NCBI RefSeq assembly: GCF_039822205.1
Contig: NZ_JBAGBW010000040.1
Coordinates: 1-7,906, forward strand
Reading direction: 5' to 3'
DNA: 7,906 nucleotides
Source: Thermodesulfobium sp. 4217-1
Lineage (GTDB): Bacteria; Thermodesulfobiota; Thermodesulfobiia; Thermodesulfobiales; Thermodesulfobiaceae
Shown here: piece after piece, positions 1 through 7,829 of the stretch
Layout: each line of letters starts with the position of its first letter
How positions within the stretch are numbered: the first letter of the stretch is position 1
Made by a program: the position numbers and the translations under genes
Notes under the pieces: model-generated
Seen by the model: the letters and a program-made list of their open reading frames with translations, nothing else
Databases searched by the model: none
What the model was told of the DNA's origin: nothing

Positions 1-131
1 ACCTTAACAATAGCAAGATAGGAAAATATTCCCAAGATAAGTTATAATATTGAAATTGAGCGCACCATCCAAAGTTAAAATACTTATTAGAGTTTCTTGG
101 CTAACATATTGATCCACAAAAGGGAGGAAAA
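1..131. other. Untranslated lead-in upstream of the CYTH-CHAD gene
   Basis: I see no convincing coding sequence here. A TATAAT hexamer lies at 43-48 on the plus strand, but no good -35 box sits 16-18 nt before it. If it is used, the 5' leader would be roughly 75-80 nt. A TTGAAA hexamer at 50-55 has no matching -10 at normal spacing. A small GGAA/TTCC hairpin is possible at 21-32 but has no following T-run, so it is not a terminator. The promoter of the downstream operon is therefore not assigned with confidence, and it may lie before the window. Confidence 0.4.
121..127 (+). promoter_or_regulatory. Ribosome binding site of the CYTH-CHAD gene
   Basis: AGGGAGG lies four A residues before the ATG at 132. 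It is the strongest Shine-Dalgarno sequence in the window and fixes the start of the first gene. The spacing is slightly short but usable. Confidence 0.8.
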
Positions 132-1652
132 ATGAACACAAATATAGAAATTGAGTTAAAGCTTAGATGCATTTTTCCTGAAAAAATCGATGAGATATAC
201 TCTCTTCCATTGCTTTCTGACATAAAAGATGAATGGAAGAAAAAAGAGATTCGTTCTATATATTACGACACAGCAGAAAACATTTTTTTAAATTCAGGAA
301 TATCTCTCAGGACAAGATTGGAAGATGGCGAATGGACGCAGACCATTAAGGTTGCAGGAAATTCGAATGGGGGCTTTTCCAGGAGAAAAGAGTACAACGT
401 CTCAATCCAGGACGGCAAGCCTGACTTAACAGTATTAAAAGATTCATCGCTAAAAAACTTTTTTAAAGACACGAAATCCAAATTCGAACTCACACCAATG
501 TTTGAAACAGTTTTTGAAAGAAGTGTAGCTCTTTATACCTATAGCGACAAAAGCGTGCTTGAGTTGGCAGTTGACAGGGGGAAAATTATTTCAGGCGACA
601 AAACTGAAGACTTCTGCGAGGTGGAAATAGAGCTTAAAGAAGGCAATATTTCTTCCATCCTAAAGCTCGCAGAAGACCTCTCAAAATCAATTAGCTTTCT
701 ACTGGAACCTAAAAGCAAATATTACAGAGGTATCTTGCTTGCAAATCTGGAACCAAAATATGAAATCCAAAAGGAAAGGGATCCTGATGTAATAGCTGAA
801 GAAGGATTGCAAAATGAGTTAACAGAAAAACTTCAAAATTTAATCCTATATCACAATAGATTCGTAGAAAATCCAGAAAATTTTGATAATCTTCACAATT
901 TTAGGGTATCTCTTAGAAAAATTAGAACCATATTGAAGTTCGGAAAACCATTAATAGAAAAAGACGATCTAAACCACTGGTTAGAACAATTTGACCAGAT
1001 TACAGAGTTGACTAATCCACTTAGAGAGACAGATGTATTGATTGAAGATTGGAGAAGCTTCCTTGCTATAACCAAGCGCGATGACCTTAAAAACTCCATT
1101 CTTACAAAAAAGCTTCTTGAAGAGAGACAGCTCAAATTAGACTTAATATATCCTTATTTTTCCGAAGGAAAATTTACCAATATATTTCTTGGTCTTTGGT
1201 ACTGGCTATTAGAGGGGGCTTTTCTGATAGATGATTCAGCTACCTTAAGGCTAAAGAAGTTTGCCAAAGACAGACTAAATATATGGTTCAGAAAAACTTT
1301 GAAGAAATTGAAGAAAACAGATTTCAACAACGAGCGCGATCTTCACAAACTGAGAATTGCAACCAAAGACCTCAGGTATTCTCTAGAGGTGTTTTCTTTT
1401 GCGTTAAAATCTGACACAAAGGATATGATTTCAAAACTAAAAAAAATTCAAGACATATTGGGATATATTCACGATACCCAAACCTTTTCAGCTTATCTTG
1501 AAAGCTTGATCTCATCATCAGATAACCCTGAAATATACAAAGAAAGCGGTTGGCTGTTGGGTTACAGGCTCCATAGCGATCAAAGTCTCAAAAGCGATTT
1601 AGAGAAGCAGTGGAAAAAATTTAAAGAACAAATAAAGGCCTTTATTGATTAG
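132..1652 (+). CDS. CYTH-CHAD domain protein, predicted inorganic triphosphatase / polyphosphate-binding protein
   Basis: The 506-residue product has an N-terminal CYTH (triphosphate tunnel) domain at about residues 5-205 and a C-terminal CHAD domain at about 225-500. The CYTH signature ExExK is E6-E8-K10. Other expected tunnel residues are visible: the YYDT strand (44-47), R60 and R62 in LRTR, K73, the RRKE segment (84-87), D148, the alternating acids E163/E165/E167, and SKYYRG (195-200). CHAD is an all-helical domain with HxxR repeats. Here they are H255/R258/R262/R265 and H405/R408/K412/R415. CYTH proteins hydrolyse or bind triphosphates, and E. coli YgiF, with the same architecture, is an inorganic triphosphatase. 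CHAD domains bind polyphosphate through these basic residues. No signal peptide or membrane helix is seen, so it should be cytosolic. The strong SD at 121-127 supports this ATG. It is the first gene of a probable three-gene operon. Substrate (PPPi or other) is inferred from the family. Confidence 0.93.
   Translation: MNTNIEIELKLRCIFPEKIDEIYSLPLLSDIKDEWKKKEIRSIYYDTAENIFLNSGISLRTRLEDGEWTQTIKVAGNSNGGFSRRKEYNVSIQDGKPDLTVLKDSSLKNFFKDTKSKFELTPMFETVFERSVALYTYSDKSVLELAVDRGKIISGDKTEDFCEVEIELKEGNISSILKLAEDLSKSISFLLEPKSKYYRGILLANLEPKYEIQKERDPDVIAEEGLQNELTEKLQNLILYHNRFVENPENFDNLHNFRVSLRKIRTILKFGKPLIEKDDLNHWLEQFDQITELTNPLRETDVLIEDWRSFLAITKRDDLKNSILTKKLLEERQLKLDLIYPYFSEGKFTNIFLGLWYWLLEGAFLIDDSATLRLKKFAKDRLNIWFRKTLKKLKKTDFNNERDLHKLRIATKDLRYSLEVFSFALKSDTKDMISKLKKIQDILGYIHDTQTFSAYLESLISSSDNPEIYKESGWLLGYRLHSDQSLKSDLEKQWKKFKEQIKAFID
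1634..1638 (+). promoter_or_regulatory. Weak ribosome binding site supporting a TTG start at 1645
   Basis: AAAGG lies inside the 3' end of the CYTH-CHAD gene, 6 nt before TTG 1645 and 18 nt before the in-frame ATG 1657. Its spacing favours the TTG, which would make the start overlap the previous stop and allow translational coupling. Confidence 0.4.
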
Positions 1653-3504
1653 TACTATGGATGCAGCCTCATATTTTCTGAAGTTAGCTAACCAAAAATC
1701 ACTATATATATCAGGGAAAATAGATATAGGAGCTATTGATCTTGCGTCTTGCTCGAATGATAACAAGTTTGTCGGACTCTCATCGAAAGGAAATTACAGC
1801 TTATATTCCATTTTTGAAAATAAAATAGCTAAAACTTGGCAAGACACCTCCTCTTCGAAAATATTTATAAATTCAAGAAATTCTACCATATACCAAACTC
1901 TATCTGGTCAAATAAAAATTATTGATTTTGATAAATCAAGCCCTAAAACAATTTCGTCAGACATGGTCTTAGCCGATTTCAATGATAAATATGTTGTCAG
2001 TTATTCTGAATCAAATATATTAGCTCTTACCGAGATCGACAACCCAAGCAATATAAAAAATATACGCCTACCTGAAAATTTTACAGTAAAGGACATAGTA
2101 TTAAAAAATAACGCTCTTCTAATTGGTGAGATAAATAACCGCGTTTTTTTCATAATATATGAATTACATTCTATAACTCTGCCACAACCTCAAAGTGTTC
2201 CAGATGGCAGCGTTTATGTTGGATCTTCTGACGACTTTGAATACATTGCATTCAGATCTGACAACGCAGGCCTAAATATATTTAACACAAAAGATCCATC
2301 AAAATCTTACAATATACCCATTGTAGAATCAAAAACCAAAAAGGTTTATTTCTCAAAAGATAAAACTCTCATTGTAATAGTTGATTTCGACGAATACATC
2401 AGCTTTTGGTGGACAAATAAAGAACTTAATACGGGTAATGAGCCAATTTTCAAACAAAAAATTTGCGGCAACCCCTTAGAATTAACTTTTAGCGAAAACG
2501 GAAACGTTTCATCCTTAATAACTTACAAAAATAATTTTTTAAAAATTTGGCTTCCTGCCAGTAAAACAGATAGACTTGATTTGACTGCAAACTTTAAATC
2601 AGATGAAAGCGACTCGTTTTTGCACAACGGATATTTCCTTGACTCTGTATCGTTTACAGAAAAAAATGAAGCTGTTTGTCTTTTCATAAAACCAAGGTGG
2701 GAATCAAAGATATTGAAATTTGATTTATATAATAGACTGAATATAAACTGTGAAAACGTATTTAAGGAATCCTTAGTAAATTCTGGAATCTTATCAAATA
2801 ATTCCAAACTTTTAGCTACTTTAAGAAATAAAAATAAAATAAAAATTATCAATACCCAATCAAATAGCATAATTCAAGAATTTGCTATAAAAGATGAATC
2901 AATTAACACGCTTTGTTTCTCTCCAGATCAAAGATTTCTGATACTTGGAGGTTCTACCCTAAGGATTTGGTCTATCGATAAAGAGATAATTGTAAAGTCA
3001 GTTTTTCCAGAGCACCCCGTTAGTTTTGTCGCTGTCTCTCCAAACAGCGACTTGATAGCTTTTAGTCAGAAAGTCAGAGATAATATAATATTAAGCATAA
3101 TGGATTTAAACACAAAAGAAGTAAAAAGAAAATTCGATGGCTTAAATAATGTAAATTCCTTAGTATTTTCCCCAAATAGCAAGTTTTTATTTGTAGGCTC
3201 AACAAAAAAAGATCCTTTAATAAGAGCATATTCAGTTGATACGGGCAATCAGGTATTTTCTTATCAAACGAATTATATCGATGTCAATGATATGTGCATT
3301 AGCTCGAGCGGAACACATCTCTTTTTTGGTGGTTCAGATGAAAAAATATACGTATTTGATCTCAGAAAAACCAAGATTATAAAAATTCTTAATGGACATT
3401 ACGATATTATTAAAAAGATTAGCATATCTGAAAATGATAGATTTTTAATTTCATCGTCAAACGATGAAAGATTATGTGTTTGGAAGGTGGCCGACTATAT
3501 TTAA
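1645..3504 (+). CDS. WD40-like beta-propeller repeat protein
   Basis: The 619-residue product is built almost entirely of WD40-like beta-propeller repeats and has no signal peptide or membrane helix, so it is probably a cytosolic scaffold. The clearest blades are C-terminal: INTLCFSPDQRFLILGG...LRIWSID (419-445), VSFVAVSPNSDLIAFS (459-474), VNSLVFSPNSKFLFVGS...RAYSVD (503-532), VNDMCISSSGTHLFFGG...IYVFDL (547-573) and IIKKISISENDRFLISSSNDERLCVWKV (588-615), the last preceded by a classic GH dipeptide (584-585). More degenerate blades, such as 277-302 ending LKIWLP, cover the N-terminal half. The length fits about 14 blades, or two seven-bladed propellers; the blade count is my estimate. The start is either TTG 1645 (overlaps the upstream gene by 8 nt, AAAGG at 1634-1638) or ATG 1657 (4 nt after the stop, no SD). 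No catalytic motif is seen. It sits between the CYTH-CHAD and TPR genes, so a shared complex is likely but unproven. Confidence 0.88.
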   Translation: MISTMDAASYFLKLANQKSLYISGKIDIGAIDLASCSNDNKFVGLSSKGNYSLYSIFENKIAKTWQDTSSSKIFINSRNSTIYQTLSGQIKIIDFDKSSPKTISSDMVLADFNDKYVVSYSESNILALTEIDNPSNIKNIRLPENFTVKDIVLKNNALLIGEINNRVFFIIYELHSITLPQPQSVPDGSVYVGSSDDFEYIAFRSDNAGLNIFNTKDPSKSYNIPIVESKTKKVYFSKDKTLIVIVDFDEYISFWWTNKELNTGNEPIFKQKICGNPLELTFSENGNVSSLITYKNNFLKIWLPASKTDRLDLTANFKSDESDSFLHNGYFLDSVSFTEKNEAVCLFIKPRWESKILKFDLYNRLNINCENVFKESLVNSGILSNNSKLLATLRNKNKIKIINTQSNSIIQEFAIKDESINTLCFSPDQRFLILGGSTLRIWSIDKEIIVKSVFPEHPVSFVAVSPNSDLIAFSQKVRDNIILSIMDLNTKEVKRKFDGLNNVNSLVFSPNSKFLFVGSTKKDPLIRAYSVDTGNQVFSYQTNYIDVNDMCISSSGTHLFFGGSDEKIYVFDLRKTKIIKILNGHYDIIKKISISENDRFLISSSNDERLCVWKVADYI

Positions 3505-3507
3505 TCG

Positions 3508-3514
3508 AAAAAGG
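3508..3514 (+). promoter_or_regulatory. Ribosome binding site of the TPR gene, decides start 3522
   Basis: AAAAAGG lies 7 nt before ATG 3522 and immediately after the WD40 gene stop (3502-3504). The longer in-frame ATG at 3474 has no such site and would overlap the WD40 gene by 31 nt, so 3522 is preferred. Confidence 0.65.
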
Positions 3515-3521
3515 TTGTTTG

Positions 3522-4346
3522 ATGAGCATTAACTTAGAGGACTTTTTTAAGGAAATCAATAGAGAAATTCAGTCCAATAATTTTGAAGAGGCGCTAAACA
3601 AGTCCAATTATCTGCTTAGCCTCATTGACGCAAACGAAGTTGAATTTGACACGGAGTTTTTAATAAAGCTTCTTGATACCAGGAGCTTTATCCTTACAAT
3701 CATGGGCAACAATGCGCAGGCACTTGAAGACATAAATAGGGCAATCGAAGAAAAAAACGGCATTTCCTCAAGCAGCGACGATCAATTAGCGAAGCTTTTA
3801 ATACACAGAGGACTAAATTATTTCTACTTAGGAGACCACATATCCTCGTTAAAAGACTTCAATACTGCCATAGAAATATTAAGCTCCTCTGCCGATAAAG
3901 AATCGACTAAACTGCCACAGGTATTTTTAAACAGAAGTGCATTGCTCAAAAAACAGGGGTTAAGAAAGGAATCGTTAGAAGACATAAATAAAGCAATTTC
4001 TCTTCTAACCAAAATTAACAACTCAAAATCTATACTTATACTAATAAATGCGCTGATAGAGAAGGGGCTGCTCCTGATGGAGGAAGAGAAATTTTTTGAG
4101 TCTGCATACAATTTTGACTTGGCAATCTCAAAATCCAGACAGCTCTTAACCACAGAAAAATTAAAGATTTTAGGCACTCATATGAGATTAATTTACTATC
4201 TAATAATAACCAATCTCGCAGCAGGAAAACATCAAGACCCCATAAACAAGCTCTTGATGGAGGCCAAAAGTATTGTCAATAACTATGGAGCCAATGAAGA
4301 AACGAGCTATTGGTTAAATAAAATCGGTGAAATTGCAGCTATTTAA
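3522..4346 (+). CDS. Tetratricopeptide repeat (TPR) protein
   Basis: With the preferred start the product has 274 residues and is nearly all alpha-helical, made of about five TPR units. Recognisable ones are 46-79 (ending NNAQALEDINRAIEEK), 89-122 (LLIHRGLNYFYLGDHISSLKDFNTAI), 131-164 (FLNRSALLKKQGLRKESLEDINKAI) and 175-208 (NALIEKGLLLMEEEKFFESAYNFDLAI). Each has the usual small/large pattern (G or A at turn positions, Y/F, then A in helix B). A weaker unit begins at about residue 14, and a final helix pair covers 217-250. There is no signal peptide, membrane segment or fused enzymatic domain, so it is a cytosolic protein-protein interaction module. It follows the WD40 gene by 17 nt and is probably the last gene of the operon, since a convergent gene begins to overlap at its stop codon. 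Its partners are unknown; the operon neighbours are the obvious candidates. ATG 3474 would add 16 unlikely residues. Confidence 0.87.
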   Translation: MSINLEDFFKEINREIQSNNFEEALNKSNYLLSLIDANEVEFDTEFLIKLLDTRSFILTIMGNNAQALEDINRAIEEKNGISSSSDDQLAKLLIHRGLNYFYLGDHISSLKDFNTAIEILSSSADKESTKLPQVFLNRSALLKKQGLRKESLEDINKAISLLTKINNSKSILILINALIEKGLLLMEEEKFFESAYNFDLAISKSRQLLTTEKLKILGTHMRLIYYLIITNLAAGKHQDPINKLLMEAKSIVNNYGANEETSYWLNKIGEIAAI

Positions 4347-5845
4347 TAAAATCTAATATATTGAGACGAAATATATCCTTCAGCGCCATTTTTCGTCTTT
4401 ACCTTGTACCAAACGCTTTCGTTGGCAAGACGAGTGTCTGACTTTGGAACATAAACCTCTATATGTTCCTTATCAAGCCTTGCCTGATACATCATTCCCA
4501 CTGTATCTTTAATTGAGAATCCCTCTCCAACATATATTTTTACCTCTTTGGTACCGTCCACACTCTTAACGGTGGTGTCGTTCATTACCACACCCTCTCT
4601 AACCTGTGAGGGGTCAATCTTCTCAAGGACATCTACTTCATCCCCATAAGAAAGGCCTGCGGTTTCTTCAGCAGACTCATAAGGAGATTTTTTCAGATGA
4701 ATCTGATATCTTATCACAAATGCCTTCGCAAACATCTTTTCACTGCTCGAATTTTCACTTTCACTTGTATTATTATTATTGCCGCCTGGCTCAACAGTTA
4801 CCTTTACAGGAGTAGACTCTGCGTAATTTCCTGCCTTATTAACCGCTACAGCCTGAAACACAAAACTGCCAATCTTTTCTGGGTACCATCTGTAAACGGT
4901 ATCCTCACCAGCATACCAAACCTTAATAGTAAGGTTGTTCATAAGCAGCCTCACCTTATCTATACCTTTTTTGTCTGTGGCATCCACTCTTATCTCCAGA
5001 GGATTATTTACACCCTTAACCACAGTATTGTTAGCTGGGCTCTGAATAACAACCCTTGGAGGAGCAGTATCAGGTGGTTCGTGAGCAGTAGTGATCTGAA
5101 AAAACATGAATGTACCAAATGTTAACAACAAGGATATAAAAAAGGCAACAAGCGGTATTATATAAGAGATTGGCTTCGTTGGATGAAGACTCTCTATCTT
5201 CGGCTCTTGAGGTTTCTCTTTTTTAAATTTTAAAATAGAGGCAATGCTTGATAGATTGATATTCCCAAAAATCTTATAAATCTTTTTCAGATTAGAAAAA
5301 GGGTTCGGAATTTTTACAACAAGCTTGGATTCATAAACCTTTTGTATCCACGATCGCGCCCTTTTACGCTTTTCATCCAAGAGATCGCTTTCGGTCTGAG
5401 AGGGCTCTGGAATGACCTCTGAAACTATGCTCTCTTGAACTGACTCTTCAAGAGTTTGTTCTTCAGCAGGTTGGGCGTCGGCGTTCCCCTGGGTCTCATC
5501 GCCAGGAACTGGTTCTAATGTGGCTTCAACAGCCTTATCTTTAAGGGTGGAGATATCAATACCTGTTTTCGTCACATAAGGAGAGAAGGCAAGGAGATCT
5601 AAGTAGGACTTTTCATCAGCTTGCAACAATATACTTGTTTCATCTTGAAAATATATCCTAAAAATAAAGGTCTTAATATTCTTTTTTACAAAAGGCAAAA
5701 AAGATTTCTCTTTCTCGAACACCTCTTCAACCCATTCAATATGGGAAATATTGTCCTTTAGGGCAAAAGCCCTCCCATCGGAAGAGACAATGTGTGAACC
5801 CTTCCGTTCGATTACAATATTAGAAGGCTCAAGTGAGCGAAGCAT
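4343..5845 (-). CDS. Single-pass membrane protein with cytoplasmic N-domain, Ig-like domain and C-terminal SH3b-like domain
   Basis: The 500-residue product is mosaic. Residues 1-100 form a soluble, probably cytoplasmic domain with alternating strands (for example TFIFRIYFQDETSILLQAD, 59-77), loosely resembling a PH-like fold. Residues 106-158 are an acidic, low-complexity linker rich in E, P and Q. Residues 159-226 are strongly basic. A transmembrane helix spans about 227-250, with positive charges on the N side, so the N-terminus is inside. Residues 262-352 resemble a bacterial Ig-like domain (PPRVVIQSPANNTVV start; YRWYPEKIGSFVFQAVAVNKAGN, 318-340). An N/S-rich linker (354-368) leads to an SH3b-like C-terminus: HLKKSPYESAEETAGLSYGDEVDVLEK (383-409) and WYKVKTKNGAEGYISSQYI (479-497) with about 65 residues inserted between. 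SH3b domains often bind peptidoglycan or cell-wall peptides, which would suit an outside location; this is inferred. The start is backed by AAGGG 7 nt upstream. It is convergent with the TPR gene and divergent from the diguanylate cyclase. I recognise no named family for the whole protein. Confidence 0.85.
   Translation of the reverse strand: MLRSLEPSNIVIERKGSHIVSSDGRAFALKDNISHIEWVEEVFEKEKSFLPFVKKNIKTFIFRIYFQDETSILLQADEKSYLDLLAFSPYVTKTGIDISTLKDKAVEATLEPVPGDETQGNADAQPAEEQTLEESVQESIVSEVIPEPSQTESDLLDEKRKRARSWIQKVYESKLVVKIPNPFSNLKKIYKIFGNINLSSIASILKFKKEKPQEPKIESLHPTKPISYIIPLVAFFISLLLTFGTFMFFQITTAHEPPDTAPPRVVIQSPANNTVVKGVNNPLEIRVDATDKKGIDKVRLLMNNLTIKVWYAGEDTVYRWYPEKIGSFVFQAVAVNKAGNYAESTPVKVTVEPGGNNNNTSESENSSSEKMFAKAFVIRYQIHLKKSPYESAEETAGLSYGDEVDVLEKIDPSQVREGVVMNDTTVKSVDGTKEVKIYVGEGFSIKDTVGMMYQARLDKEHIEVYVPKSDTRLANESVWYKVKTKNGAEGYISSQYIRFY
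4364..4398. terminator. 8-bp inverted repeat near the convergent gene ends, possible terminator
   Basis: AGACGAAA (4364-4371) and TTTCGTCT (4391-4398) are perfect reverse complements separated by 19 nt. The repeat starts 18 nt after the TPR stop on the plus strand and lies just inside the 3' end of the minus-strand gene. The plus-strand 3' arm is preceded and followed by short T runs, and the minus-strand copy is followed some 15 nt later by TTTTATT. The loop is long for an intrinsic terminator and an 8-bp repeat can arise by chance, so this is only a candidate. Confidence 0.25.
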
Positions 5846-5903: not shown

Positions 5904-7829
5904 ATGGAGAAAACTTTGAGTATAAAAAACTATCTTAAAATAATAATAATCTTTTTAGTTATTACTCCATTATTAATCTTAAGCTTAGTTGCAGTAAATT
6001 TATATAACGAAACCAAGAACAGATCGATAAACGATCTAATTCAGGAAACAACCCTAAAACAGTTTACGATTCAAACATACCTTCAGAAATATACAGGCCT
6101 GATTAATCTATTATCGGCAAATATTTCACTTACAAACAACAATTATGAAAAAATAAATTACATATTTAAAGAATTATCATCTGACAGTGAAATAGAAAAT
6201 CTATATTTTGTAAGTCCGGATGGCTATAGCAACGTAGAACTAAATGGTCCTCATCACATTTCATTTAATAGCGATAAGCTATTTAAAGATGCTATGAAGG
6301 GAAATGAGGGGTTTTTAATAAAAGGCGATGAACTAAATAGCTATCTATATATCTCCAAACCTGTATACGGGACCAACAATCAAGTATCTGGCGTAGTCTT
6401 TGAAATCATAAAGCTAACAAAGTTAGAAGACCTAATAAACATCCAGAATGTCCTAAACAGCCAATCTACATTTCTTTTTTCAAACGATAAGGTGATATTA
6501 GGAAATCAACAGAAAAATATGCCAACAGACCTTTCTAAAAAGATAGATATTGCTAAGGGAAGCAGTCTGATAAATTATAAAAACGATACAGGCAAGAATT
6601 TTATCTTATATTGGAAGAATTTCCCAAATCTAAATCTTTCAATAGCCTCTCAAATTGACGAAAACTATATTTTCGAACAGTTTAAACAGGACTTCGCAGT
6701 TGTAACAATTACTTTTCTGATAATATTTATTACATCATTAATTATCTCAATCATAATGGTTAAAAAGCTTGAAGAACCAATAAATTTTTTACAAAGTTTG
6801 TCCCAGAAAATAAGGGAAGGAAATTATAAAACAAGAGTAGGACAAAGCTTCATAGAAAGCTCACCTGAGGAGTTTCAACCTCTATTAAAGTTATACAACC
6901 AAATGAGCATCTCAATAGAAAGCTATATATCTAAATTAAACGAACAATCCAAGGCTCTTGCTAAAAGTGAAGCAAGGTATAGAGCAGTAGTGGAAGACCA
7001 AACAGACCTACTTTGTAGATTTCAAAAAGATGGCACTATAACATTTTCAAACGAAGCTTTTAAGAACTATCTAAACCTTGCGGAATCAGAAAAATATAAT
7101 TTATTTGAACTCTTACAGAAAGATGCAAATAACATAAAGGATTTATTAGAGACCTTAGACAATGAGACTCAATATAGAAGCATTGAATTAACCTTTGAAA
7201 AAGAAAAAGCAAAAAGATATTTCGATTGGACATTCAGAATGATTTATAAAGACGACGCATTGGAGTTCCAGGGCACAGGACACGACATCAGTGAAATAAA
7301 AAAACTTGAAGATGAGCTCAGATACCAAAGTTTTCATGATAAGCTAACAGGGCTGCTTAATAGAGCATATTTTGAAGAAGAATTTGAAAGGTTATCAAGC
7401 GGGAGGTTTAGCCCCACATCGATAATAGTAGCCGACGTTGACAACTTAAAGGTAGTAAATGACCACCTAGGACACGACAAGGGAGATTTATTGTTAATAA
7501 AGGCTTCAAATATATTACAAGCAAACTTTAGAAACACAGATATAGTTGCAAGAATTGGCGGAGATGAGTTTGTAATTCTCTTACCGTTTTGCCCATTAGA
7601 ATGCGTAGAAGAGCTCTTAAAAAGGCTAGACGACAATATAAGAGCAGCAAATAAAGTAGCAGACAGCCTTTACTTGAGCATATCAATTGGATATGCAAAT
7701 GCAAAAGGACCCTTTAATAAAGTAGATCTCTTTAAAGAAGCAGACACAAAAATGTATCTGGACAAGAAATCGCATCACGAAAAAGCAAAAGAAATAGCTA
7801 TTAAAAGAATTAAAAAATATAATACATAA
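5904..7829 (+). CDS. Membrane-bound diguanylate cyclase (sensor-HAMP-PAS-GGDEF)
   Basis: The 641-residue product should make cyclic di-GMP from two GTP at the inner face of the membrane. In order: TM1 (about 12-33), a periplasmic Cache-like sensor (36-260, with the core IENLYFVSPDG at 97-107 and SYLYISKPVYG at 146-156), TM2 (264-286), HAMP (287-340), PAS (356-465) and GGDEF (472-630). The active-site GGDEF is intact at 552-556. D511, N519 and D528 match the metal- and guanine-binding residues of PleD, and the inhibitory I-site RxxD is R543-N-T-D546, five residues before GGDEF, so product inhibition is expected. There is no EAL or HD-GYP domain. The ligand is unknown. The start is uncertain: ATG 5904 has no SD, whereas TTG 5916 has GGAG at 5906-5909 with 6-nt spacing and fits the promoter better. 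The longer form is listed; only four residues differ. It is divergent from the membrane SH3b gene. Confidence 0.93.
   Translation: MEKTLSIKNYLKIIIIFLVITPLLILSLVAVNLYNETKNRSINDLIQETTLKQFTIQTYLQKYTGLINLLSANISLTNNNYEKINYIFKELSSDSEIENLYFVSPDGYSNVELNGPHHISFNSDKLFKDAMKGNEGFLIKGDELNSYLYISKPVYGTNNQVSGVVFEIIKLTKLEDLINIQNVLNSQSTFLFSNDKVILGNQQKNMPTDLSKKIDIAKGSSLINYKNDTGKNFILYWKNFPNLNLSIASQIDENYIFEQFKQDFAVVTITFLIIFITSLIISIIMVKKLEEPINFLQSLSQKIREGNYKTRVGQSFIESSPEEFQPLLKLYNQMSISIESYISKLNEQSKALAKSEARYRAVVEDQTDLLCRFQKDGTITFSNEAFKNYLNLAESEKYNLFELLQKDANNIKDLLETLDNETQYRSIELTFEKEKAKRYFDWTFRMIYKDDALEFQGTGHDISEIKKLEDELRYQSFHDKLTGLLNRAYFEEEFERLSSGRFSPTSIIVADVDNLKVVNDHLGHDKGDLLLIKASNILQANFRNTDIVARIGGDEFVILLPFCPLECVEELLKRLDDNIRAANKVADSLYLSISIGYANAKGPFNKVDLFKEADTKMYLDKKSHHEKAKEIAIKRIKKYNT
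5906..5909 (+). promoter_or_regulatory. Possible ribosome binding site for a TTG start at 5916
   Basis: GGAG sits 6 nt before TTG 5916, in frame with the cyclase. No comparable site precedes ATG 5904 (upstream bases are ACTAAAAATTCTA), so the real N-terminus may begin four codons later. Confidence 0.45.

Follow-up and report, generated by a model that had tools for sequence, protein, structure and literature searches.

CYTH-CHAD, WD40 and TPR genes of Thermodesulfobium as the likely downstream half of a polyphosphate operon

Three tightly packed genes on one strand of a Thermodesulfobium contig raise the question of what a CYTH-CHAD protein, a WD40 protein and a TPR protein have to do with one another. 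The window, meaning the whole stretch of DNA analysed, is an entire 7906-bp contig (C40 of genome G000). Its open reading frames placed the trio where the original prediction had it, with CYTH-CHAD at 132-1652 (+, 506 aa), WD40 at 1657-3504 (+, alternative TTG start at 1645) and TPR at 3522-4346 (+, 274 aa). The ribosome binding site AGGGAGG of CYTH-CHAD can be read directly at 121-127 (+), with GGAGGAAAAATGAA invariant in four genomes. The junction between CYTH-CHAD and WD40 is an 8-nt overlap if WD40 starts at TTG 1645, which has AAAGG 6 nt upstream, or a 4-nt gap if it starts at ATG 1657, from which MDAASYF is conserved across all orthologues; WD40 and TPR are separated by 17 nt. Two more distant congeners have gaps of 6 nt and 11-12 nt at these junctions, and the range over four genus members is 4-6 nt after CYTH-CHAD and 11-17 nt after WD40. 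Thus, the packing is conserved and is not a chance feature of one assembly. The junctions are probably translationally coupled.

A compact operon of these three genes had been proposed, and the compactness, kept throughout the genus, holds; the three-gene extent does not, since the unit continues upstream past the window. The first bases of the window are the final seven codons of a ppx gene (1-21, +; TLTIAR and stop), cut by the contig end and matching the end of ppx on contig L002 (JAJXTU010000009.1) of a sister MAG whose CYTH-CHAD is 97% identical to that of the window. Upstream of CYTH-CHAD, L002 encodes Ppx/GppA (524 aa), Ppk1 (721 aa) and a second Ppx/GppA (508 aa). The Ppk1 of the window's own genome, 98% identical to that of L002, lies on contig C36, which ends at 12438, just past a complete second ppx, and whose last 47 bases are window bases 1-47. 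Given the continuity of L002 and this overlap, the actual unit is ppx-ppk1-ppx-CYTH/CHAD-WD40-TPR. A search for ppk and ppx near the trio was therefore positive, with ppk1 and two ppx genes directly upstream in the window's genome and in three congeners. Ppk1 was identified by its Pfam PP_kinase domains (1e-33 to 3e-77) and by TIGR03705 (857 bits, cut-off 466). On L002, the first ppx overlaps ppk1 by 4 nt and ppk1 adjoins the second ppx, as they also do in G000, G001 and G003. With ppk1, ppx and a CHAD gene closely packed on one strand, the locus has the gene content and layout of a polyphosphate operon.

This gene order is identical in all four genus genomes (1.77-2.0 Mb, GC content near 35%), and a search for homologues standing apart in these close relatives found the trio always together. 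WD40 and TPR evolve faster than the other genes compared: identity to the window in the one-contig genomes G001 and G003 is 67% for WD40 and 65-68% for TPR against 78% for CYTH-CHAD, and that of Ppk1 is 87%. The dN/dS values of 0.06-0.16 for CYTH-CHAD, WD40 and TPR (0.04-0.16 over all genes) indicate that the three are maintained genes under purifying selection. Genus synteny itself is weak evidence of function, because unrelated SH3/Ig and dCache-GGDEF neighbours are also syntenic, and the co-location of WD40 and TPR may be inherited. The former neighbour is a convergent gene (4343-5845, -) whose stop overlaps that of TPR by a few bases; its product has a likely membrane segment with bacterial Ig (Big_7) and SH3_3 domains, and it is syntenic in all four genus members. 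The latter (5904-7829, +) encodes a dCache-PAS-GGDEF diguanylate cyclase, syntenic in the genus. Relatives beyond the genus share only the domain level in the genome collection searched, and because they are listed as "same domain" only, the genus appears to be alone in its phylum there.

Ppk1 makes polyphosphate, Ppx degrades it, CHAD domains bind it and CYTH domains cleave tripolyphosphate. The CYTH domain of the CYTH-CHAD protein (aa 4-196; Pfam 3e-18, 66.7 bits against a curated cut-off of 23.2) is of the YgiF-like inorganic triphosphatase type and is followed by a polyphosphate-binding CHAD domain (aa 238-456; 6e-34, 118.4 bits against 25.6). Among solved structures, the protein is closest to E. 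coli inorganic triphosphatase (PDB 5a60, 2e-22) and a polyphosphate-binding CHAD protein (6qv7, 5e-11). Invariant in the four orthologues are the ExExK residues E6, E8 and K10, together with R60, R62, K73 and E163/E165/E167, and the CHAD residues H255 and H405 are invariant in the genus; the role of ExExK and of the basic and acidic residues in the CYTH tunnel is one we take from knowledge of the family. With both domains above their cut-offs and the ExExK and tunnel residues present, the protein appears by sequence to belong to the YgiF-like family. It resembles E. coli YgiF (PDB 5A60/5A61) in domain order, CYTH motif and length (a 435-aa chain against 506 aa here) and differs from it in its low identity and in its placement in a polyphosphate operon with two scaffold-type genes. 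The proposed link of CYTH-CHAD to polyphosphate was borne out by ppk1 and two ppx genes upstream in four genomes and by the CHAD domain, a known polyphosphate binder that, as described in PMC6537752, also sits on granules. Phosins of Ralstonia eutropha polyphosphate granules, cited in the same paper, likewise carry a CHAD domain. A role of CYTH-CHAD in polyphosphate metabolism is thus well supported, because the gene order is shared by all four genus genomes.

The gap between ppx and CYTH-CHAD differs from the later junctions in being longer (78-110 nt in four genus members) and divergent in sequence. Within it, GATAAnnTATAAT (36-48, +), a candidate -10 element without a clear -35, is invariant in all four. 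The longer gap and the invariant element make a second, internal promoter possible, and CYTH-CHAD, WD40 and TPR may for the same reason form a separate transcript. A promoter scan, in which the overall number of sites was about equal to that in shuffles, did not call the GATAAnnTATAAT site as a sigma-70 promoter, and a named sigma-70 promoter ahead of CYTH-CHAD was rejected. A three-gene unit with its own promoter could serve signalling through phosphate or nucleotides, with CYTH-CHAD as a CYTH cyclase or thiamine triphosphatase, for instance, instead of polyphosphate storage. Both the gap with its conserved element and the presence of cyclases and thiamine triphosphatases within the CYTH fold, as described in PMC8233210, would fit such a unit. 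However, CHAD is fused to CYTH, ppk1 and two ppx genes are adjacent and the best match is the inorganic triphosphatase 5a60, and we consider a signalling unit highly improbable.

The products of WD40 and TPR show no catalytic domain, and their pI values (7.5 and 5.3, respectively) give no sign of a generally basic character that would point to direct polyphosphate binding. The WD40 protein (Pfam WD40, 1e-19, with repeats in the C-terminal half) is predicted to form two beta-propellers: its AlphaFold model, of modest confidence (pLDDT 66), has strands at 29-290 and 374-610, and its Foldseek alignments to WD40 proteins with tandem propellers run along the full length, at TM-scores that are low because the two model halves are poorly placed. 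For the TPR protein (Pfam TPR_2, 7.5e-11), AlphaFold gave a confident 13-helix solenoid (pLDDT 92), nearest in Foldseek to the TPR domains of BtubC, kinesin light chain and LGN (3e-7 for BtubC and kinesin light chain). These domains bind peptides or partner proteins. A scaffold role for WD40 and TPR is plausible.

CHAD was found in 84 of 389 genomes, the genus included, and 60 CHAD loci from other lineages, each up to 19 kb, were screened for ppk and ppx as well as for WD40 and TPR genes. Of these loci, 16 have ppk1 at most about 9.5 kb from CHAD, 25 have ppx and 26 have either, a strong enrichment given that such a stretch covers well under 2% of a genome. At three loci (L065, L070 and L084), CHAD is accompanied by ppk1 and two ppx genes in another gene order, and a fourth (L104) has the same gene set, again with two ppx and in another order, around a CHAD-only protein. 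No WD40 or TPR gene was found joined directly to CHAD in any of the 60 loci, the TPR screen, by phmmer, being less sensitive than that for WD40. A Pfam scan of the 102 same-strand CHAD neighbours, ppk and ppx aside, gave thymidylate kinase (9), ParA-type ATPase (8) and histidine phosphatase (8) as the commonest; among the 25 commonest families listed, a list that could hide a lone WD40 or TPR neighbour, no WD40 or TPR family matched at least 2 of the 102. A loose multi-seed search returned seven WD40-type matches within 9.5 kb, none of them joined to CHAD. This is likely an overcount, because kinase-bearing seeds drew in L098, where the gene that seemingly overlaps CHAD in fact encodes a TPR-bearing protein kinase; the long antisense frames there, two in number, are probably a high-GC effect. 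At L075, CHAD is followed by two other genes and then, about 2.5 kb downstream, by the start of a WD40-type gene on the same strand. Moreover, no full-length relative of the WD40 protein was found outside the genus in the 389 genomes, and its N-terminal propeller had no orthologues there even with a profile, outside matches beginning at residue 370 or later. A widespread CHAD-WD40-TPR system was accordingly rejected on these loci and genomes. The co-occurrence proposed as a check holds for the trio within the genus and was not found at the 60 outside loci, and the attachment of WD40 and TPR appears, as far as these sequence data go, to be a private trait of the genus.

The same results bear on the main alternative, namely that the operon functionally ends at CYTH-CHAD and that WD40 and TPR are read-through passengers serving another process in the genus. 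Besides the lack of joined WD40 or TPR genes at all 60 outside loci and the extension of genus synteny to unrelated genes, paralogues of both WD40 and TPR lie at other sites of the genome, outside any polyphosphate context. One is a TPR paralogue of 26-27% identity, present once per genus member and away from polyphosphate genes (L054:5796-6665). A 922-aa protein largely of WD40 repeats (L055:7155-9923) is also encoded outside the operon, beside a pyruvate-kinase-like gene. However, the gaps of 4-17 nt and the overlapping alternative start are kept in the genus, and genes packed so tightly are functionally related more often than not. We give the passenger reading a serious but minority chance.

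On balance, we lean toward an operon for polyphosphate homeostasis whose downstream half is the trio and in which WD40 and TPR act as a pair of adaptors specific to the genus. The tight, conserved junctions favour this view over passengers, though only moderately. Based on established family functions and conserved residues, Ppk1 would make polyphosphate from ATP, the two Ppx/GppA-type exopolyphosphatases would shorten it, the CHAD domain would hold CYTH-CHAD on it and the CYTH tunnel may cleave tripolyphosphate or short chains. The WD40 double propeller and TPR solenoid, presumably made in step with CYTH-CHAD via the tight junctions, would link other proteins to CYTH-CHAD or to the surface of the granule. 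By analogy, their place would be that of the ParA-type ATPase gene found beside CHAD in some other lineages. In a stronger version, WD40 and TPR would form a scaffold dedicated to this task and specific to the genus, on which CYTH-CHAD and Ppk1/Ppx dock at polyphosphate granules or which positions the granules, in the place that ParA-type ATPases have in other lineages; this version is speculative and seems to us unlikely. The organisation and positioning of bacterial polyphosphate granules are poorly known. If the adaptor reading is true, the locus offers a defined set of candidates for the scaffolding of granules, namely polyphosphate enzymes, a polyphosphate binder and two interaction platforms; should WD40 and TPR be passengers, it is an ordinary polyphosphate operon.

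Clusters of ppk1, ppx and CHAD genes were noted by Iyer and Aravind in 2002 (cited in PMC6537752), a ppk-parA-CHAD cluster is described in Acidithiobacillus (PMC10892726), and the linkage of CHAD to ppk and ppx is thus already in the literature, as these two papers present it. The genus shares with such clusters the side-by-side Ppk1, Ppx and CYTH-CHAD genes and differs from them in gene order, in lacking a ParA gene and in having WD40 and TPR added downstream. The suggestion of an undescribed phosphate-handling assembly was consequently too strong, as a polyphosphate cluster of a familiar type accounts for four of the six genes. The polyphosphate part is ordinary, and the novelty is the lineage-specific addition of WD40 and TPR to it. 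Judged by title and abstract, no paper retrieved in a literature search dealt with a ppk operon that includes a WD40 gene or with WD40 on granules of bacteria. Elsewhere, a ParA-like ATPase gene often lies directly beside CHAD (8 of 102 neighbours, for example at L061, L065, L070 and L075), and the genus, without a ParA gene at its CHAD locus, has ParA-type ATPases at other sites. Thymidylate-kinase-type (9) and histidine-phosphatase (8) genes also recur beside CHAD, at L105:8503-11279 and other loci.
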